Shown in pieces: positions 3,565 through 14,741 of a stretch of 14,741 nt of DNA. The notes under the pieces were generated by a model. That model was not told where the DNA came from, did not search any database, and worked only from the letters and a program-made list of their open reading frames with translations. The position numbers and the translations under genes are program-made. Each line of letters opens with the position of its first letter. The stretch's first letter is position 1. This stretch comes from Candidatus Aenigmatarchaeota archaeon (GTDB lineage: Archaea; Aenigmatarchaeota; Aenigmatarchaeia; Aenigmatarchaeales; JAHLMR01): positions 1-14,741 of the forward strand of contig JAHLMR010000012.1 in assembly GCA_018920255.1 (NCBI GenBank), read 5' to 3'.

Positions 3565-4089
3565 ATGAGAAATAGAAAAGCAATGATTGAAGCTACTCTT
3601 TTTATGGCAACAAAAAATTTAACAGCAGAAGAAATTGCAAAAATTTTAAAAATACAACCAGAAGAAGTTAAACAAGTTGTAAATGAAATGAAAAAAGAAC
3701 TTGAATCTGAAGATAGAGGTATATATCTTTTAGAAACAAATACAGGGTATAGATTGTTTGTAAAACCAGAATATATAAAATATGTAAAAAATCTTGCTTC
3801 TTATCAAGATTTAAGCAGAGGGCTTCTTAGAGTTCTTGCTTTAGTTGCATATAAGCAACCAATAACGCAATCTGAAATTGTAAAAGTTATTGGAAATAGA
3901 ACATATGAATATGTTAAAGAACTTGAAAAACGTGGGTTAATAACTACAGTTAAAAGCGGTAGAACAAAAGCATTAGTAGCAACAAAAGAGTTTGCAGAAT
4001 ATTTTGGTATACAAAACCCAGAAGATGCAAAAAAGCTTTTTGAAAGTTTAAAGGGTGAAAATATTGAAAAAGGAAATGACAGCGCTTGA
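3565..4089 (+). CDS. scpB: Segregation and condensation protein B
   Basis: ScpB is the winged-helix (KITE) subunit that binds the ScpA kleisin and joins the SMC ring that organises and segregates chromosomes. The protein has 174 residues, slightly short for the family. A first winged-helix domain spans about 3-70 (IEATLFMATKNLTAEEIAKIL). The second, about 85-155, carries the family phrase LALVAYKQPITQSEIVKVIG followed by LEKRGLITTVKSGRTKALVATKEFAEYFGI with only conservative changes. The tail (FESLKGENIEKGNDSA) is low complexity and its last 14 nt overlap the start of the next gene. With scpA downstream this is the same functional pair, but separated by two other genes; smc itself is not in the window. 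The start is supported by a TATA-like box 21-29 nt upstream. Confidence 0.95.
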   Translation: MRNRKAMIEATLFMATKNLTAEEIAKILKIQPEEVKQVVNEMKKELESEDRGIYLLETNTGYRLFVKPEYIKYVKNLASYQDLSRGLLRVLALVAYKQPITQSEIVKVIGNRTYEYVKELEKRGLITTVKSGRTKALVATKEFAEYFGIQNPEDAKKLFESLKGENIEKGNDSA

Positions 4090-5188
4090 AATTAAATTTC
4101 TTATTCCTGAATTAAAAAATCTTATAGGGGGTTTTATTCAAAAAATTTATCAGGAAGAAAAAAATGTAAGAATTCAAATTTATATAACTGATAAAGGTTT
4201 ATTTGAATTATTTTATGAGCCTAATAAAATTTTTATAACAGAATATAAAAGAAAATCATCTGAGCATCCTGATGCGTTTGGAATGGCTTTAAGAAAATAT
4301 TTAATTGGGCAAAAAATTATTGATATTAAACAACATGGTTTTGATAGAATTATTGAAATTAAAACAGAAAAAAATATACTTATTTTTGAATTGTTTTCTA
4401 AAGGAAATGTAATACTTTGTGATGAAAATAAAAATGTTATATTACCATTAGAAGTTCAAATATGGAAAGATAGACAAATAGTACCTAAAAAGCCATATGT
4501 ATATCCACCACCAGTGATAGATCCATTTTCATTAAGTTTTGAAGAATTTAAAAAAATTGTATTTTCAAATGAAAAAAGTATTGTAAGATTTTTAGCATCT
4601 GATATGTCACTTTCAAGTGTTTATGCTGAAGAAGTTTGTATAAGATCTAAAATTGATAAAAATATGATTTGTAAAAATATGAACGAATCTGATATTTTAA
4701 AGGTTTACAATTCTATTCAAAGTTTATTAAAAGATTTTTCTCCAAGAATTATAAAAAAAGATAATGAATATATTGATGTTATTCCAATTAAACTTAATTA
4801 TTATGATGATTATGAATCAATAGAATTTAATACTTTAACTACTGCTTTAGATGAATTTTTTACAGAACAATCAATTAAAATAAAAGAAAAAGAAGCTGAA
4901 AAAATTAAAGAAGATATTAGTAAAAAAATTGAAATAAAAATTTCAGAACAAATTTCTGCTCTTGAAAAATATAAAAAATTTGAAATGGAAGCAAAACTTG
5001 CAGGTGAATTAATATATAAAAACTTTGAGTTAATTCAAAATATAATAAACGGAATTCAAAACGCTAGGAAAAACAATATTTCTTGGAAGGAAATAAAAGA
5101 AAGAATTAAAACTGAAGATACTCCTGAAGCAAAAGCAATAAAGGAAATAAGAGAAAACGATGGGATAGTCGTAGTAGAAGTTGATTAA
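4076..5188 (+). CDS. rqcH: RqcH/NFACT-family protein lacking the NFACT-R domain
   Basis: The start MTALEIKFLIPELKNLIGGF is the classic NFACT N-terminus, so ATG 4076 is preferred over the in-frame GTG at 4055; it overlaps scpB by 14 nt. Visible in order are the NFACT-N domain (1-150) with PDAFGMALRKYL and the DR pair (D90-R91 in QHGFDRII), a helix-hairpin-helix region (about 155-225), the remainder of NFACT-N, and coiled coil (about 265-340). In bacterial RqcH and eukaryotic Rqc2 the DR residues help hold tRNA on the obstructed large subunit during tail synthesis. Family members are normally 550-650 residues and continue past the equivalent of VVVEVD into NFACT-R. Here the protein stops exactly there, at 370 residues, and the next codon is the nurA ATG. 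It may be a split or reduced RqcH; tail synthesis is unproven. Confidence 0.85.
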   Translation: MTALEIKFLIPELKNLIGGFIQKIYQEEKNVRIQIYITDKGLFELFYEPNKIFITEYKRKSSEHPDAFGMALRKYLIGQKIIDIKQHGFDRIIEIKTEKNILIFELFSKGNVILCDENKNVILPLEVQIWKDRQIVPKKPYVYPPPVIDPFSLSFEEFKKIVFSNEKSIVRFLASDMSLSSVYAEEVCIRSKIDKNMICKNMNESDILKVYNSIQSLLKDFSPRIIKKDNEYIDVIPIKLNYYDDYESIEFNTLTTALDEFFTEQSIKIKEKEAEKIKEDISKKIEIKISEQISALEKYKKFEMEAKLAGELIYKNFELIQNIINGIQNARKNNISWKEIKERIKTEDTPEAKAIKEIRENDGIVVVEVD

Positions 5189-6235
5189 ATGATAAATAAT
5201 GAATTACAATCTATTTTGGATAATATTAAAAAAATACATTTAAACAATAAGGAAATATCTGAAAAAATTTTAAAAATGAAAGATGAAATAGAGTTAAAAT
5301 TTGGAGAAGTTATTGAAAATAAATTAACATATAAAATTGATTATGAAACTATTCCAGAATTAAATGTACTTGCTATTGATGGTGGGTCTTATAGAAAAAT
5401 TTTTAATGGAATAGATGCTTTTATTATAAAAACTTCCGGTGTTTTTTGTAAATATGTAAATGGAAAATTAGTTAATACAGATTATCTTGAAACTGGAAGA
5501 CCTAAAATATTTTTTTCTCTTTTTGAAGCAAATGAAGGAAATATTTATGTTGGTTTAAAAAGAAATATGGAAGAAATAAAAACTGCTATAGAGGGATTTA
5601 AAAAATTTAATCCAGATATTATTTTGTTAGATGGAAGTGTAATTCCTCATAATTCTGAAAGACCGCAAAGAGATTCTCAATTCTGGAATGAATATGAAAC
5701 ATTAATAGAATATTTAAAAAATCTTTATGAAATTGCTGGAAATAAAGTTGTTGGTTGTATAAAGGATAGTAGAGGAAAAAGATTTTTAGATATTATTTCT
5801 CAAAATATAATTAATTTAAATGAAGCTAAATTTACAAACGATACAATTTTTTTAAATTATATTTTAAAATATTCTGAGCGTACTCCTGTTTTTAGATTTT
5901 CTAAAGGAGAACATTATATTTTAAATGATTTAAATGCTAAAAATAATATTTTTTGTTTTTATTTTTCAGCTGCTGAAAATGATTTTCCTATGAGAATAGA
6001 ATTTTGGTGTGAAAATGATAATAAAAAAATAATAGAAAATGCTAATAAAATTTCAAAAATTATGCTTATGCTTTGTAAACATTCAAGATACAGTGTTCCT
6101 GCACCTCTTATAGAAGCTGATTTAAGAGCAAGAGTAAATGAATATGATAGTGAGAGATTAATTAATCACATATTTAATTCTTCAGGTATTTTGTTTTCAT
6201 TTATGAAAAGAAGAAGAGATAATAGGCCATTTTAA
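5189..6235 (+). CDS. nurA: NurA-family nuclease
   Basis: The 348-residue protein shows the NurA core. LAIDGGSY places a catalytic-type Asp at 64, IILLDGS another at 148, and VGCIKDSRGKRFLD (from 188) supplies the conserved Lys/Ser/Arg stretch. The end (RYSVPAPLIEADLRARV) matches the YPxPLxxAHxxA region of the family. NurA is a Mn-dependent, RNase H-fold nuclease that partners the HerA helicase, and often Mre11-Rad50, to resect DNA ends. HerA is not present here. The ATG directly follows the rqcH stop (TAA then ATG), so translation is probably coupled. Residues 1-60 are helical and poorly characterised. The family call rests on motifs and order, not on strong overall identity, which I could not measure. 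Confidence 0.85.
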   Translation: MINNELQSILDNIKKIHLNNKEISEKILKMKDEIELKFGEVIENKLTYKIDYETIPELNVLAIDGGSYRKIFNGIDAFIIKTSGVFCKYVNGKLVNTDYLETGRPKIFFSLFEANEGNIYVGLKRNMEEIKTAIEGFKKFNPDIILLDGSVIPHNSERPQRDSQFWNEYETLIEYLKNLYEIAGNKVVGCIKDSRGKRFLDIISQNIINLNEAKFTNDTIFLNYILKYSERTPVFRFSKGEHYILNDLNAKNNIFCFYFSAAENDFPMRIEFWCENDNKKIIENANKISKIMLMLCKHSRYSVPAPLIEADLRARVNEYDSERLINHIFNSSGILFSFMKRRRDNRPF

Positions 6236-6240
6236 ATATT
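6231..6240 (+). promoter_or_regulatory. TATA element of scpA overlapping the nurA stop codon
   Basis: TTTAAATATT lies 23-32 nt before the scpA ATG, and the nurA stop TAA (6233-6235) is embedded in it. The 27-nt gap holds no Shine-Dalgarno, consistent with a leaderless scpA transcript in addition to any read-through. Confidence 0.5.
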
Positions 6241-6262
6241 TTAAAAAATAAAAAATTAAATT

Positions 6263-7015
6263 ATGCAAGAAAATAAAAAACTATCTGATCAAGATATTAT
6301 AAATATAACAATAAATGAACCAAGCTGGGAAGATGTAATAGTTAAAATTGTAATAGAAGAAAATATTGACCCATGGAATTTAGATTTAGTTAAATTATGC
6401 GATGCTTTTATTGAGTATTTAAAAAAACTTGAAAAATATGATTTAAGAATACCCGCAAGATTTATTCTCATTTCTGCTATTTTACTTAGAATGAAATCTG
6501 ATATTCTTTCAAATAAAAAAGAAAGAATATTAATACCAGAAGGTCCTGAAAATGAAAGGGATAGCGAATTACTACGTATTCTTGCAAGCATCCCACCACT
6601 CCAACCTCCATTAAAAAGAGTTACTTTTGCTAACGTTACATTATCTGAACTTATAACTGCATTAAAAAAAGCATTTGAAGTTGAAAAGAGAAGAGTAATG
6701 AAAAAAGAAAAAATTAGAGCAAAAATTAATGAAATACTTCCTAAAGATGAAGAAGATATTAATGACAGAATAGCAAAACTTCTTGAAAATATAATGGAAA
6801 CTATTGAGCATGTAGAAAAAATAACTACATTTAAAAAAATTGTTAAAAAATGGGAAAGAAAAGAAATAGTTAAAACTTTTCTACCAATGCTTTATTTAGA
6901 TCAAGAGGGGAAAATTGAATGTGAGCAACCTATTCTTTTTGAAGATATTTTTATTAAATTAAAATCTGAAGAAACCAAAAATCCAGAAAACAAATCCAAT
7001 CATAATACAAAGTAA
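6263..7015 (+). CDS. scpA: Segregation and condensation protein A (kleisin)
   Basis: ScpA is the kleisin that bridges the two SMC heads and recruits ScpB. The 250-residue protein has the typical N-terminal block IDPWNLDLVKLCDAFIEYL followed by LRIPARFILISAILLRMKSDIL (about 35-85). A variable charged linker (85-175) follows, then a C-terminal winged-helix segment (about 176-233) with ERKEIVKTFLPMLYLDQEGKI and ILFEDIFIKL. The last 17 residues (after FIKL) are polar and lie entirely in a 57-nt overlap with the convergent ydjM-like gene, so they may be a dispensable extension. The start is supported by the family N-terminus and the TATA box 23-32 nt upstream. The gene is the last of the plus-strand cluster scpB-rqcH-nurA-scpA. 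Confidence 0.94.
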   Translation: MQENKKLSDQDIINITINEPSWEDVIVKIVIEENIDPWNLDLVKLCDAFIEYLKKLEKYDLRIPARFILISAILLRMKSDILSNKKERILIPEGPENERDSELLRILASIPPLQPPLKRVTFANVTLSELITALKKAFEVEKRRVMKKEKIRAKINEILPKDEEDINDRIAKLLENIMETIEHVEKITTFKKIVKKWERKEIVKTFLPMLYLDQEGKIECEQPILFEDIFIKLKSEETKNPENKSNHNTK

Positions 7016-7369: not shown

Positions 7370-7789
7370 TTAAACCAAACATCCGCAAACTTTTTTATTA
7401 CAACAATTTAAACAATTTTCATCTTTAATAGGAAAATAAGAGGGTGGAGTTGTTTCTGTTGATATACCAAAACATGGACAATTATAATAATTATAACATA
7501 AAGCTGCTAAATTATCTCCATAAAGATTTGAAGGTGCTGGCTTATCATTTATGTGTCTATTTTTATTTGCATCAAAATCTTTAATCATTATATTAAATAT
7601 TTCATTAATATCTCCACACTTTCCACTTCTTATTAATTCTTGACATCCTTGAGATCTTGCAGATTCTAAACTAACTGTACCCCCTGAAGTTGTAAAAGAT
7701 CCAGAAAAAAGATAAAGGACTCCTAATAATACAACTGCAGCTATTATAATGATAATAATTAAATTAATTGGTAACTCTATTCCTTTCAT
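7370..7789 (-). CDS. Cysteine-rich type IV pilin-like protein 1 with degenerate EF-hand loop
   Basis: The 139-residue product begins MKGIELPIN and a hydrophobic stretch (10-30) ending in FSGSF. The very short charged leader MKG before the hydrophobic helix fits class III (prepilin) signal peptides, with cleavage likely after Gly3. The rest would be extracellular. There are ten Cys (49, 58, 98, 104, 106, 126, 129, 130, 135, 137), suggesting disulfides or metal binding, and a loop DANKNRHIND (73-82). That loop resembles an EF-hand or dockerin loop, but Arg replaces the essential Gly and Pro replaces the final acidic residue. It shares CQELIRSGKCG with protein 2. Start and upstream 40 nt are identical to pilin-like gene 2, including the TATA box. 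I infer a minor pilin or pilus-like surface subunit served by the ATPase at 8741-10993. Confidence 0.82.
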   Translation of the reverse strand: MKGIELPINLIIIIIIAAVVLLGVLYLFSGSFTTSGGTVSLESARSQGCQELIRSGKCGDINEIFNIMIKDFDANKNRHINDKPAPSNLYGDNLAALCYNYYNCPCFGISTETTPPSYFPIKDENCLNCCNKKVCGCLV

Positions 7790-7829
7790 AAATTAAAAAT
7801 AGAAAAAGAGAAATTTAAAGATTTTATTT
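7790..7829 (-). repeat. 40-nt promoter repeat, copy 1
   Basis: Upstream of pilin-like gene 1, these 40 nt are identical to 8304-8343 and continue into nearly identical first codons. The duplication that produced genes 1 and 2 therefore included the promoter. Confidence 0.9.
7811..7820 (-). promoter_or_regulatory. TATA element of pilin-like gene 1
   Basis: CTTTAAATTT on the minus strand, 22-31 nt before the ATG at 7789, without a Shine-Dalgarno. It lies inside a 40-nt repeat shared with the next pilin gene. Confidence 0.65.
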
Positions 7830-7877
7830 TAAAGTAAATTAAATAAAATTATTAGAACCAAAATAAAATTAAAAAAT

Positions 7878-8303
7878 TTAGAGTGCTGGGCATTTACAAA
7901 CTTTTTTATTACAGCATTCAAAACATGCTTCTTCATTAAAACTTTGAGTGCCAATAGCACAAGAATAACAATTATAGTAATTTTTACATAACATTCCTAA
8001 ACCATCTGCTCCTGGATCTATTACAGGTTCACCATGTGGACCTTGTATAAATATTGGATCATTTATTTTTCCATTTTTATTAGCATCAAAATCTTTTATT
8101 TGAATTTCAAATATTTTCATGACCTCTCCGCATTTTCCACTTCTTATTAATTCTTGGCATCCTTGAGATGTTGCTGCTTGTAATGAAACGGTGCTTCCAG
8201 AAGTTGATAATGCGCCTGAAAGAAGAAAAACAACTCCTATAAGTGCAATTAAAGCAATAGCTATTATAACAATTAGATTAATTGGTAATTCTATTCCTTT
8301 CAT
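7878..8303 (-). CDS. Cysteine-rich type IV pilin-like protein 2 with partial EF-hand loop
   Basis: The 141-residue paralogue of its two neighbours has the same MKGIELPIN leader, a hydrophobic helix (10-30) and an extracellular domain with ten Cys (49, 58, 106, 112, 115, 127, 130, 131, 136, 138). The loop DANKNGKIND (73-82) keeps D1, N3, N5 and G6 of an EF-hand-type calcium loop, but position 12 is Ile instead of Asp/Glu. After it comes a Gly/Pro/Asp insert (QGPHGEPVIDPGADG, 87-101) not present in the neighbours. The C-terminal motif ECCNKKVCKC is shared with the others. Its ATG sits 38 nt after the pilin 3 stop, and the TATA box is packed into that gap, so it can be expressed separately as a leaderless mRNA. 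Pilin identity is inferred from the signal type and the adjacent ATPase. Confidence 0.82.
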   Translation of the reverse strand: MKGIELPINLIVIIAIALIALIGVVFLLSGALSTSGSTVSLQAATSQGCQELIRSGKCGEVMKIFEIQIKDFDANKNGKINDPIFIQGPHGEPVIDPGADGLGMLCKNYYNCYSCAIGTQSFNEEACFECCNKKVCKCPAL

Positions 8304-8343
8304 AAATTAAAAATAGAAAAAGAGAAATTTAAAGATTTTATTT
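8304..8343 (-). repeat. 40-nt promoter repeat, copy 2
   Basis: Identical to 7790-7829. The far end of this copy runs into the stop codon of pilin-like gene 3. Confidence 0.9.
8325..8334 (-). promoter_or_regulatory. TATA element of pilin-like gene 2
   Basis: CTTTAAATTT on the minus strand, 22-31 nt before the ATG at 8303, in the 38-nt gap behind pilin-like gene 3. No Shine-Dalgarno is present. Confidence 0.65.
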
Positions 8344-8695
8344 AAGATCCACAACCGCAAACACGTTTGTTGCAACATTCTACAAAATCATAACCAGTCT
8401 TTCCAGAACAGCCATAATAATTTTCACATAAAGCTTGTAATGTATCTTTATCATCTAAATTTCCATCTTTATTAGCATCAAACCCTGGTGTTTTTATAGT
8501 CCCTGGATAACCAGCATTTCCACATTGTCCAGATCTTAGTAATTGTTGACATGCAGCTGATTTTGCACTTTCTAAGCCAATTCCTCCTGCTCCTTGTCCA
8601 AATCCTCCCATATATAATGCACTTAATCCTAACAATACAATTACAGCCATTGCAATAATTACTAATATATTAATTGGTAACTCTATTCCTTTCAT
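8342..8695 (-). CDS. Cysteine-rich type IV pilin-like protein 3 with intact EF-hand-type loop
   Basis: This is the shortest of the trio (117 residues) and the one nearest the ATPase. It has MKGIELPIN, a hydrophobic helix (10-30), a Gly-rich stretch (30-40) and eight Cys (49, 58, 90, 96, 107, 108, 113, 115). Residues 73-84, DANKDGNLDDKD, fit the EF-hand or dockerin calcium loop at every key position (D1, N3, D5, G6, L8, D9, D12), followed by TLQALCENYYGC. Eight Cys in about 70 extracellular residues suggests a disulfide-locked small domain. Unlike its paralogues it has a strong Shine-Dalgarno (AGAGGTGAT) and an upstream TATA that gives a short leader. I infer it may be the main subunit, or be expressed more strongly, but stoichiometry cannot be read from sequence. 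Confidence 0.85.
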   Translation of the reverse strand: MKGIELPINILVIIAMAVIVLLGLSALYMGGFGQGAGGIGLESAKSAACQQLLRSGQCGNAGYPGTIKTPGFDANKDGNLDDKDTLQALCENYYGCSGKTGYDFVECCNKRVCGCGS

Positions 8696-8740: not shown

Positions 8741-10993
8741 TTAAGTAGTTGATTTAGCTTCCTTTTTAAACCATTCTAACCATAAATCAAATACCCTTTT
8801 ACTATCTATTATTCCGATTTCTTTTCTGCTTTCTTCAGCAAATTTATGAAACATTTGATTTACTTTAATGAGCATTGGTGCTTCTAAAATTTCTAAGTTT
8901 TTTGTTTGCCTTGAGATATCAACCATTGTTTTTAAAATATTTGCTCTTAATTGAATATTATCCCAAACTAAGTCCCATCTTCCAGCCCATCCAGGAATTC
9001 TATTTGCAATAGAATTTAAAACCATAGATTCTCCGTTTAATAAAATATCTGTTGGTTTTAATGTATCTTCCTTAACATCATATTCCATTAAATTAATGAA
9101 TCCATTTTCTTCAACCGGATCTCTTTGCCAATGCTTTCTTATTTCAGTTATCTCAACAACTCTTCTATAACTTTTTAAACCATCAGGGCTTCTTATTTTA
9201 TTTGCAATTACAACAATATCTGTAGCTTTGAAAGATGTAACAGGTACCCCCAAATCATTAACAACTCTATCAAAAACACCATATGCACTTTCACCGTGAA
9301 TTGTTCCAGCAACAACATTAGCTAATGCACCTACTCTCATTGCTTCATATAAAGCTTTTGCTTCTACGCTTCTAACTTCTCCTAAAAATAAACAAGAATC
9401 TCCTAAACGCAATGCAGTTCTTAATGCATCTTCAGCTGAAAGCTCAAATTCTATTTTTGTAATTACAGATCTTGATTTTAATCTTTGAACATTATATCCT
9501 AATTCTCTTAATGCTTCAACAGGTAATTCTAATGTATCTTCGCATGTAACTATTCTATAAGAAGGTAAAATTTGAAGCATTAAAGATCCTAATAAAGATG
9601 TTTTTCCAGTACCTCTTGTACCCGCTACAAGTATTGTTCTTCCATACTCTGTTAAAAACCATAATAAACCTCCACATAATGGGTTAAAAAAATTAAGATT
9701 CATGAATAGAGGGAAAGTCCAAGGTTTAAATCTATGTCTTCTTAATGCAAATGCAAGCCCATCTGGTGATAAATGTGGATTTATTGCTGCAACTCTTGCT
9801 ACACCTCCAGGTACGCTAATTTCTGTATCTAAAACTGGATTTGCTTCGTCTAATGGTCTTCCGCTAATAAGCTTAAATCTGGTTGCCCATCTTTCTCCAT
9901 CATCCTTTGTTGGTATTAAATTAGTTTCACATTCATCAAAATCCTGATGATTTATAAAAATAGGAGAAATACCTAAAGGAGAATTTGAATATATATCTTG
10001 TATTTTTTCATCTGCAAGCAAAAGCTCTAAAATTCCAAGACCTGCAGTATATCTTGTAAGAATTCTTGCAAGCTTTTCAGTTTCTTCTGAAGATATAGAA
10101 ATATGCATTTGTTCTGATAAATCTTTTATAAGTTCTATTCCTATATTATAGAATAACTCTCTCATTTTTTCTTGTTCTCTTAATTCTAATTCCCTTGGTC
10201 TTCTTTTTTCTAATACTTGTCTTGCTGCATCAAGTAAAAGATATTGTTCTTCAGAAAGTCTAAATTCCGGAGGAGTTATAAAATAAACTGGTCTTACTTT
10301 ATCTGTTACTTTATATATTTCAACTAAAGAATCGCCTACATTATATCTATCTATTATTTCTCCTCTTGGTGGTACTGTCATATATTTTGTAAACATAAAA
10401 TTTGGACGTGTAGATGGTCTAAATATTTGTCTATATAAATCCCTGCTTCCTATATGATATGCTGTTAAATGTGGTTTTGATATTTGAATCAGCTGACATT
10501 TTTCTAAAATCTCTTTAATGGGAATTAATGTATTTTCAAGATAATACATTATTCCTTCTGAAATTTTTTGTGGCTCATGTTGAGCCTTTGCTTTTAAATG
10601 TCTTATTTCTCTTATTAAATTTACATATGCACCAATAGGATCTCCACGAAGTTGATAATGAACAAGATCTTGCAGCCAATTATACCAAATTTTTCCATAT
10701 TCTAAAAGCTCTTTTGATTTTATTATTTTATTTAATGAAACTAATTTTTTCTCATTAAGAATTTCTACATATGCATTTGCAATTTCTTTAAGCAATTTTG
10801 TTTGATCTGAGGGATAGTGGTATTCTCTTGTTGATGCTAATGTAAATTCTCTTACATCTTTTTGTTGTATAAGTTTATCTATTGTTGTTGCCATACAAAC
10901 ATCAAAATCTTCAACAGAAGATCCAAAAATGCATCCAAGACAATGAACGCGCATATTACCTTCTTTAATTTCTTCTATATTACATACGACCAT
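8741..10993 (-). CDS. Type II/IV secretion and pilus assembly ATPase (GspE/TadA/PilB superfamily)
   Basis: This is the cytoplasmic hexameric motor that drives pilus or pseudopilus assembly. In the 750-residue protein the core spans about 300-620: Walker A GTRGTGKTS (458-466), Asp box TCEDTLEL (483-490), Walker B with LFLGEVR (Glu539) and His box GTIHGES (563-569). The N-terminal part is long and begins with four Cys at 4, 18, 21 and 33 (HCLGC), a possible metal site. The 130 residues after the core are predicted soluble helices. It heads a minus-strand run with three pilin-like genes, which strongly suggests they are its substrates. No TadC/PilC-type membrane platform or prepilin peptidase is in the window. 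The ATG at 10993 has a Shine-Dalgarno-like GTGAG with a 6-nt spacer; an internal ATG (residue 14) is less likely because it would drop Cys4. Confidence 0.93.
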   Translation of the reverse strand: MVVCNIEEIKEGNMRVHCLGCIFGSSVEDFDVCMATTIDKLIQQKDVREFTLASTREYHYPSDQTKLLKEIANAYVEILNEKKLVSLNKIIKSKELLEYGKIWYNWLQDLVHYQLRGDPIGAYVNLIREIRHLKAKAQHEPQKISEGIMYYLENTLIPIKEILEKCQLIQISKPHLTAYHIGSRDLYRQIFRPSTRPNFMFTKYMTVPPRGEIIDRYNVGDSLVEIYKVTDKVRPVYFITPPEFRLSEEQYLLLDAARQVLEKRRPRELELREQEKMRELFYNIGIELIKDLSEQMHISISSEETEKLARILTRYTAGLGILELLLADEKIQDIYSNSPLGISPIFINHQDFDECETNLIPTKDDGERWATRFKLISGRPLDEANPVLDTEISVPGGVARVAAINPHLSPDGLAFALRRHRFKPWTFPLFMNLNFFNPLCGGLLWFLTEYGRTILVAGTRGTGKTSLLGSLMLQILPSYRIVTCEDTLELPVEALRELGYNVQRLKSRSVITKIEFELSAEDALRTALRLGDSCLFLGEVRSVEAKALYEAMRVGALANVVAGTIHGESAYGVFDRVVNDLGVPVTSFKATDIVVIANKIRSPDGLKSYRRVVEITEIRKHWQRDPVEENGFINLMEYDVKEDTLKPTDILLNGESMVLNSIANRIPGWAGRWDLVWDNIQLRANILKTMVDISRQTKNLEILEAPMLIKVNQMFHKFAEESRKEIGIIDSKRVFDLWLEWFKKEAKSTT

Positions 10994-11050: not shown

Positions 11051-11071
11051 ATAAAAGTTTATGTGAATAAT

Positions 11072-11446
11072 ATGCCTGAAAAGGGTATTGAAGCAATAGC
11101 AACAGAAGCAGTAAGAAGAATGAATGAACATACAAGAAGACTTAGATCTCTCGAAGAAAAAAATAACCTTTTAGAACTTAGAATAAATATGATTGAAGAT
11201 AGACTTTTAAAATCAATAGAAGAAACAAGAGATAGACTTGCAAAAATTGAAAAAAAGATAGTTGAAATTGATAATAATTTTGTAAAAATAGAAAATGAAA
11301 TTTCAAAAATAAATAAATCACTAGAAAAATCTGTAAAAAGAACAGAAATAAAAGAACTTGAAAGTATAATTTCATTTTTTAATCCACTAAAAAGTAAATT
11401 TGTAACAAAGGAAGAAGTAGAAAAAATGATAAGAGAAAAAAAATAA
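11072..11446 (+). CDS. Small coiled-coil protein divergent from the pilus ATPase
   Basis: Unknown function. From ATG 11072 the product has 124 residues and begins MPEKGIEAIATEAVRRMNEH. Residues 15-95 are a nearly continuous, charged heptad-type coiled coil (LRSLEEKNNLLELRI, then repeated I-x-x-I-E-x-x-I spacing). A short C-terminal piece, NPLKSKFVTKEEVEKMI, looks like a conserved helix-turn cap. There is no signal peptide or membrane segment, so it should be cytoplasmic. I preferred ATG 11072 to GTG 11063 because TTTATTAAT at 11042-11050 lies 22-30 nt upstream, matching the leaderless spacing seen elsewhere. Divergence from the ATPase across a 78-nt shared promoter region suggests, but does not prove, a role as an accessory of the pilus motor. 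Its stop is only 3 nt from the convergent ppsA stop. Confidence 0.75.
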   Translation: MPEKGIEAIATEAVRRMNEHTRRLRSLEEKNNLLELRINMIEDRLLKSIEETRDRLAKIEKKIVEIDNNFVKIENEISKINKSLEKSVKRTEIKELESIISFFNPLKSKFVTKEEVEKMIREKK

Positions 11447-13795: not shown

Positions 13796-14741
13796 TTAAA
13801 CTGGTCCATGCAAATAATGATTCAAAACTTCTTCAGGTGTTAGTGCACGGTTCCAGATTCGGACTTCATCGATTATGCCTCTGAAATAATAACCAGCACT
13901 AGCTCCCCAGCCACTAATAAAAATTTTTTCAGTTACACTTTTTGAGCTCTTTGTTATGGATGAACAACATTCAGATATATCCACTTTAGTTCCATTTATA
14001 TAAAGTGTATTATTTGTTGATGATGGGAGCCCATTATGAAATACTGCAACAACATATATCAAATTATTAGCCATATAACTATTACTGGTGCCCAATACAT
14101 TACTATCACCTGTATTAAAACCTAAACAGCCACAATTAATATATAAATCATATGCTGTATTCCAGCCAAAGGGCATTACACCTTGTGAACCTGTCCAATT
14201 CATCCAAAATTCTACTGTATTTTTAGCGTTGAGGGAAGTATTTACTAATAAATTATTCGCGGATACATTATTTGCTCCAGTAAAATTTAATGCTTTTCCA
14301 TATTTTCCATCTACCCATTGTGGATTATTTACTAATTGACCGTCGTTTCCATAAATAGAAGAATCATAAGCAATTGTCCCTGAACCTTCATCAAATTTCC
14401 AATATCCAACTAAACTTGGGTCTGAATTTTCTTTTCCAACTTGTTTTGTTTGCACAACTCCAGGAATTGTTATTTTTAAAGTCCTTGGATAAGAATAATC
14501 AATAAAATCATAAACAAAAAATGTATAAATTTCCCCTGGATTAACTATTTTTGAAGAATTAGTAAAATTAACTGGTTTTTCATCTACATAAATTGCAAAA
14601 TTTGTTATTGGGGTTTGTCCTGTATTTCTAATTGTTATTTGTTTTCCGCTAACTGCTTCTATAACAAAGTTTTGGGACATTCCTGTTGTAATTTGTGAAA
14701 TTCCAGAACTTGCTGTTGAAGTTGTTTGGGAAAAAATACTA
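13796..14741 (-). CDS. LamG-domain surface protein with pilin-like stalk (N-terminus off the right edge)
   Basis: The frame is open to the window edge, with 314 residues visible. The ATG at 14680 is internal to the frame and probably not the start, since upstream codons (SIFSQTTSTASSGISQ) read smoothly into it. This Ser/Thr-rich stretch followed by VIEAVSGKQITIRNTGQTPITN is the usual sequence after the membrane helix in archaeal pilin-like secreted proteins; the helix itself would be off-window. A LamG (concanavalin A-like) domain covers about the last 210 residues, from LVGYWKFDEGSGTIAYDSS through VEFWMNW to the hallmark RGIIDEVRIWNRALTPEEV. Such domains bind sugars or proteins on other cells. 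Several NxS/T sites could be glycosylated. The 3' part is about 42% G+C against about 20% in neighbouring ppsA, hinting at separate origin. The ligand is unknown. Confidence 0.87.
   Translation of the reverse strand, partial: SIFSQTTSTASSGISQITTGMSQNFVIEAVSGKQITIRNTGQTPITNFAIYVDEKPVNFTNSSKIVNPGEIYTFFVYDFIDYSYPRTLKITIPGVVQTKQVGKENSDPSLVGYWKFDEGSGTIAYDSSIYGNDGQLVNNPQWVDGKYGKALNFTGANNVSANNLLVNTSLNAKNTVEFWMNWTGSQGVMPFGWNTAYDLYINCGCLGFNTGDSNVLGTSNSYMANNLIYVVAVFHNGLPSSTNNTLYINGTKVDISECCSSITKSSKSVTEKIFISGWGASAGYYFRGIIDEVRIWNRALTPEEVLNHYLHGPV

Follow-up and report, generated by a model that had tools for sequence, protein, structure and literature searches.

The three tandem genes and their surroundings

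The window analysed in this work is the whole stretch of 14,741 nucleotides, an entire contig (C3). The genome, of 552 kb and 94.6% completeness, is that of an archaeon that is tiny and probably host-dependent. The central part of the window is occupied by a trio of tandem minus-strand open reading frames (ORFs), namely pil3, pil2 and pil1, preceded by an ATPase gene, with the following features:

8741-10993, minus strand: T2SSE ATPase of 750 aa (type II/IV secretion), immediately preceding pil3 in the same orientation (Pfam T2SSE, E 4.9e-16)
8342-8695, minus strand: pil3, ORF for a 117-aa pilin-like protein with 8 Cys and the best-formed calcium-type loop (AF2 head pLDDT ~80)
8351-8377, minus strand: C-terminal CCNKRVCGC of pil3, from the sequence
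8304-8343, minus strand: upstream element of pil2, ~40 bp identical to that of pil1, with a TATA-like CTTTAAA ~30 bp before the ATG
7878-8303, minus strand: pil2, 141-aa paralogue with 10 Cys, loop DANKNG and an insert ahead of the closing Asp100 (ORF, alignment)
7890-7916, minus strand: C-terminal CCNKKVCKC of pil2, from the sequence
7790-7829, minus strand: upstream element of pil1, same sequence as that of pil2
7370-7789, minus strand: pil1, 139-aa paralogue with 10 Cys, loop DANKNR and an insert ahead of the closing Asp92 (ORF, alignment, AF2)
7379-7405, minus strand: C-terminal CCNKKVCGC of pil1, from the sequence

All three ORFs start with MKGIELPIN, carry Cys49 and Cys58, open a loop at Asp73 and end in CCNK-x-VC-x-C, just as an earlier note on this DNA had described. 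The wider portrait drawn there, of archaeal, pilin-like, Cys-rich tandem duplicates bearing a calcium-type loop, is likewise supported by our results, which place the archaeon in DPANN (Aenigmatarchaeota), and its idea of an attachment filament is plausible. With mutual identities of ~45-61%, pil1, pil2 and pil3 are, judged by their sequences, true paralogues derived from tandem duplication; features common to the trio are expected because of this duplication, and the informative test lies in relatives outside it. Rough estimates, given the AT-rich codon bias, were dN 0.28 and dS 0.78 for pil1/pil2, 0.43 and 0.52 for pil1/pil3, and 0.52 and 0.74 for pil2/pil3, with synonymous sites unsaturated among the three; the high dN/dS in the comparisons with pil3 (0.7-0.8) is consistent with relaxed or diversifying change.

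Regarding expression, the upstream elements make a separate, leaderless transcription of pil1 and pil2 likely, and a related copy precedes a PEP-synthase-like gene (13756-11450). Scans for sigma-70 promoters and terminators performed no better than shuffles, and such scans have no relevance for archaea.

Other genes were observed in the window. A row of ScpB, NFACT-like, NurA and ScpA genes (3565-7015) represents bacterial-type condensin partners in a DPANN genome. A large NosD/right-handed beta-helix surface protein lies at one contig end (1-2044, minus strand), and a similar repeat protein starts contig C19 of the same genome. At the other end (13796-14741, minus strand), a LamG-type lectin-like protein is encoded by a frame that continues past the contig end; the true start therefore probably lies beyond the listed ATG, and the protein may lack a pilin-like N-terminus in this contig.

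The pilin-like family and its calcium-type loop

A single-sequence search with pil3 retrieved relatives in 43 of 59 related genomes, and a 24-row alignment (A1) used as profile detected the family in 95 of the 156 Candidatus Aenigmatarchaeota genomes covered by the search, pil3 being the highest-scoring member within its own genome. When single proteins and the family alignment were searched, no credible named family was obtained from Pfam or NCBIfam for any of the 24 A1 members, nor any chain related by sequence from the PDB; what emerges is a phylum-wide family of small pilin-like proteins, absent from both family databases and with no solved relative, in which a class III-type signal/TM helix is joined to a compact head. 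The A1 consensus comprises K-G-x-E-L-P-[IV]-N, a hydrophobic helix, C49, C58 or near, Leu-x-x-[LA]-C, a further Cys, and C-x-C. The proteins of the trio show a basic-Gly start of class III type, in which MKG is followed by residues 8-29, helical in the AF2 model, with an unusually short leader and a Glu that is off the classical +5 position and not conserved family-wide. Contig C19 encodes a fourth Cys pilin of this genome (L045:7629-7928), which displays the six-Cys core and no calcium-type loop.

The loops starting at Asp73 are:

8444-8479, minus strand: pil3 loop, D73-D84 (DANKDGNLDDKD), from the sequence, the Dx[DN]xDG motif and alignments A1/A3
8004-8087, minus strand: pil2 loop (DANKNGKINDPI), D73 to the closing D100, with a 16-residue insert relative to pil3
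7514-7573, minus strand: pil1 loop (DANKNRHINDKP), D73 to the closing D92, with an 8-residue insert relative to pil3 and Gly6 replaced by Arg78

Dx[DN]xDG is matched by pil3 (DANKDG plus D81/D84) and nearly matched by pil2 (Asn5), while pil1 does not match (Asn5, Arg6), its Gly6 being replaced by Arg and positions 3 and 5 both being occupied by Asn. In the alignment, D84 of pil3 shares a column with the Asp of DGLGMLC in pil2 (D100) and of DNLAALC in pil1 (D92). The apparent loss of the last ligand position (position 12) from these two proteins is thus for the most part a matter of alignment: insertions have displaced this position, and the closing Asp persists. In the same manner, the decay that was proposed to have followed duplication was over-read, since only pil1 is clearly weakened (Gly6 to Arg). 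This closing Asp is invariant in the close set, where it is located at the start of the next helix; among members from the same order, almost all of the loops detected by pattern retain it, with up to ~39 intervening residues, and its spacing in the family ranges from 2 to ~39 residues. Elsewhere in the phylum the loops are short (DVTGDGVSD, DITGDGIKD, DIDDDGASD), spaced much as in the calcium blades of integrin and PilY1 and not as in EF-hands, by comparison with Rigden et al. (2011; PMC3123361). According to these authors, calcium is bound by Dx[DN]xDG in many settings other than EF-hands, the distance to the last ligand being variable, and such loops are biased to surface proteins and rare in archaea. 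Given the displaced closing Asp and the short loops of other members, Dx[DN]xDG is the right comparison, and our preferred reading of the trio's loop is a calcium loop of Dx[DN]xDG type, for which calcium binding is predicted.

The EF-hand or dockerin identity suggested in the earlier note was discarded. No EF-hand match in Pfam passes, as EF-hand_1 reached 12 bits against a cut-off of 25.4 in pil2 only, with none for pil1 or pil3; in place of the helix-loop-helix, usually paired, of EF-hands, the low-depth AF2 model predicts coil before a single loop and helix 86-93 after it. Dockerins need two 22-residue repeats, in contrast to the single loop found here, and no Pfam dockerin match appeared at E up to 1.

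The frequency of the loop in the family was compared with that in sequences shuffled with the Cys held in place, and in reversed sequences as a second control. Among 121 non-redundant members, the strict Dx[DN]xDG motif occurs in 13 (0.5 expected from shuffles), and an anchored form, in which the loop is tied to the following Leu-x-x-x-Cys helix, in 29 (2.1 expected). Because the choice of rows for the A1 profile had in part favoured members with the loop, these statistics were repeated without those rows: the 99 non-redundant relatives outside the profile gave 14 anchored loops against 1.3 expected and none in reversed sequences, and 5 strict motifs against 0.4 expected, but 2 in reversed sequences. 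On these counts, the loop is a real but optional element; its absence from many members and from the C19 pilin indicates that calcium is not essential to the fold. Free variation in orthologues, named in the earlier note as an outcome that would refute its reading, was borne out half-way: close relatives keep the loop and many members of the class lack it. Loops are present in ~nine genome families and cluster on the family tree, a poorly resolved tree that includes the loop columns, with 16 label changes compared with 21.8 for shuffled labels (3 of 500 shuffles as low); at least 6 of the 16 are forced by well-supported branches, which points to several gains or losses.

This history bears on an alternative, in which the same pilins carry an acidic, variable surface loop that resembles a calcium loop by chance, binds no calcium in the cell and would act as a glycan, partner-binding or diversifying region. 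The repeated changes and absences along the tree, the wide range of closing-Asp spacings, and the pil1 loop with no Gly6 and few acidic ligands are all compatible with it; however, ligand-patterned loops far exceed both the shuffled and reversed controls, they are tied to the conserved Asp of the next helix, and the pil3 loop is ordered in the model (block pLDDT 83-85). We regard this alternative as possible but doubtful.

Gene context and type IV pilus machinery

The ATPase encoded next to pil3 has matches in 58 of the 59 relatives at E <= 1e-20, most of which are full-length orthologues ~50-69% identical. In 18 of the 22 genomes whose pilin and ATPase genes share a contig, the former lies downstream of the latter in the same orientation (positions read by hand; binomial against 1/4, p 4e-8); this strand and order signal is stronger than that of the pilin-ATPase distance alone, which was borderline in eight large contigs (Fisher p 0.05). 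A typical locus runs from the ATPase through TadC, which follows it in most loci examined, and a run of large proteins whose starts are class III-like, to one to three small Cys pilins. In the genome studied here this locus is split, the window carrying the ATPase and the trio, and contig C19 a 695-aa double TadC, large pilin-like proteins and the fourth Cys pilin. A prepilin peptidase is encoded on C24, TadC genes on C19, C11 and C23, and other T2SSE genes are also present in the genome. The trio is therefore found in the context of archaeal type IV pilins: adjacent ATPase, ATPase-TadC-pilin order conserved in relatives, and peptidase in the genome.

Instead of filament-forming major pilins, the trio could be pseudopilins or minor pilins belonging to a machine for secretion or DNA uptake. 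The many large proteins with class III-like starts, which make the system more than a simple pilus, and an ATPase that falls within the general T2SSE family would suit this option; nevertheless, the small size of the proteins, their tandem copies, the repeated upstream elements of their own and their position at the end of the locus suit structural subunits, and we consider a minor-pilin role unlikely. Major-pilin type subunits are our preferred reading of the trio.

Several other observations were made on these loci. One ATPase orthologue (L193:14889-18296, genome G013) lies in a frame with Intein_splicing and LAGLIDADG domains, and in G002, G004, G008, G017, G027, G034, G038 and G055 the ATPase match is split near residues 488 or 541 within frames of 1250-2000 aa; judging by the split matches, these orthologues appear to carry inteins, and the copy in the window (8741-10993) has none. 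Next to the latter, 11063-11446 encodes a 127-aa coiled-coil-like protein, divergent from the ATPase and with no Pfam match, which is possibly a regulator or a part of the pilus system; similar N-terminal sequences adjoin the ATPase in several relatives (L185, L186, L190, L191, L193). Directly before the double TadC of C19, a secreted transglutaminase-like protein (L167:7112-8866; PF01841) could act on pilus or surface proteins. A gene for an Alba-like chromatin protein (GKKPxMSYVLA, recognised by eye) is found beside small pilins in several relatives (L185, L189, L195 and L197).

Cysteines, predicted head and proposed pilus

Among 118 non-redundant family members of <=170 residues, the number of Cys outside the signal region is even in 113, with six in 70 and eight in 23; the nominal p of 1e-27 for this parity overstates its strength, as the members are related. 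Odd counts are nearly absent over a wide range of genome families, which is what disulfide pairing predicts. C113 is invariant and C115 nearly invariant in A1 (pil3 numbering, C-terminal tail). We infer a head stapled by a six-Cys core forming three disulfides, with one or two extra pairs in the trio. Binding of zinc or iron-sulfur through the CC-x4-C-x-C tail in place of disulfides was judged improbable: the dense terminal cluster (CCNKxVCxC), a probably anaerobic organism and a genome search that found no VKOR speak for it, but the extra Cys arrive as pairs, typical of disulfides, the most frequent family tail is only CxxxCGC, and the predicted location is extracellular.

The AF2 models rest on four sequences (pTM 0.53-0.58). 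In that of pil3, residues 8-29 form a helix, 30-37 a linker of low confidence, and the head has helices at 41-55, 86-93 and 102-112; in pil1, pLDDT drops to 65 in the loop and to 47 in the insert. In solved archaeal pilins the head is an Ig-like beta-sandwich (PMC7347861), in contrast to the helices and loops predicted here, where such a sandwich was not seen. Searches of the PDB with Foldseek and VIA-align gave nothing useful for pil3 and chance-level matches only for pil1; given the shallow alignment, a new fold for the pilin head is offered as a hypothesis only.

With the integration of these findings, we consider it reasonably probable that the trio are structural subunits of a phylum-wide type IV pilus, having a disulfide-stapled head and, in some subunits, a calcium loop. 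As tandem major-pilin type subunits, each would be synthesised as a pre-pilin, in which a short Lys-Gly leader precedes a hydrophobic helix. The prepilin peptidase of the genome would then process it, and the adjacent ATPase would act with the double-TadC platform encoded on C19 in its assembly. The exposed head would be small, mostly helical and loop-rich, held by the six-Cys staple and its extra pairs, with the loop placed between the second core Cys and the helix bearing the third, and closed by the Asp with which that helix begins. By ordering the exposed loop, calcium would help the head to withstand unfolding or to bind a partner cell, and the differences in loop length and ligand strength would give the three copies distinct surfaces. 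Such a pilus would most likely be adhesive or host-contact in role. A broader proposal, which we put forward tentatively, is a phylum-wide pilin class whose new small, helical, disulfide-stapled head replaces the Ig-like or bacterial fold, and in which the Dx[DN]xDG loop has been repeatedly gained, lost or re-tuned, calcium setting the stiffness or partner-binding of host-holding filaments.

Archaeal type IV pilins of PilA type (Makarova et al., 2016, PMC4858521; PMC7347861) share with the trio the Lys-Gly start, the hydrophobic N-terminal helix, the ATPase/TadC context and the small size; the trio differs in having no Pfam, NCBIfam or PDB match, six or more paired Cys, and the calcium-type loop. 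Cys-rich pilus loci in Thermoproteales (PMC4858521) and a disulfide in a Pyrobaculum pilin (PMC4858521; PMC7347861) were already known. Makarova et al. (2019; PMC6393860) used signal peptides and nearby ATPase/TadC genes to predict, for some DPANN genomes, diverse pilins with no detectable similarity to those of other archaea; the passages considered here describe no calcium loop, Cys pattern or the present family for these 'dark matter' pilins. Among bacterial systems, the head of the T2SS major pseudopilin PulG/GspG needs calcium for folding and assembly (PMC6692295 and references). It resembles our proposal in being a calcium-dependent, pilin-type major subunit, the binding being predicted for the trio, and differs in its bacterial alpha/beta head and in showing no detectable sequence relation. 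The calcium site of PulG/GspG is also different from that predicted for the trio loop. PilY1 and other calcium blades (PMC3123361) have the linear Dx[DN]xDG motif in common, and some family members show the short DxDxDGxxD spacing (DITGDGIKD); however, the PilY1 loop belongs to a beta-propeller protein and that of the trio to a pilin.

Little is known about the structures with which uncultured DPANN archaea attach, and the cells considered here may build surface filaments stapled by disulfides and stiffened by calcium. If calcium binding holds true, a pilin would be added to the structures in which the Dx[DN]xDG loop is known; the pilins can be produced as small soluble heads, so that both the calcium and the disulfide question are open to direct test. 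For Aenigmarchaeota, a published survey reports type IV pili only in genomes from thermal sites (PMC8407114), and the prevalence of the ATPase and of the pilin family found here suggests that pili in this phylum may have been under-detected.
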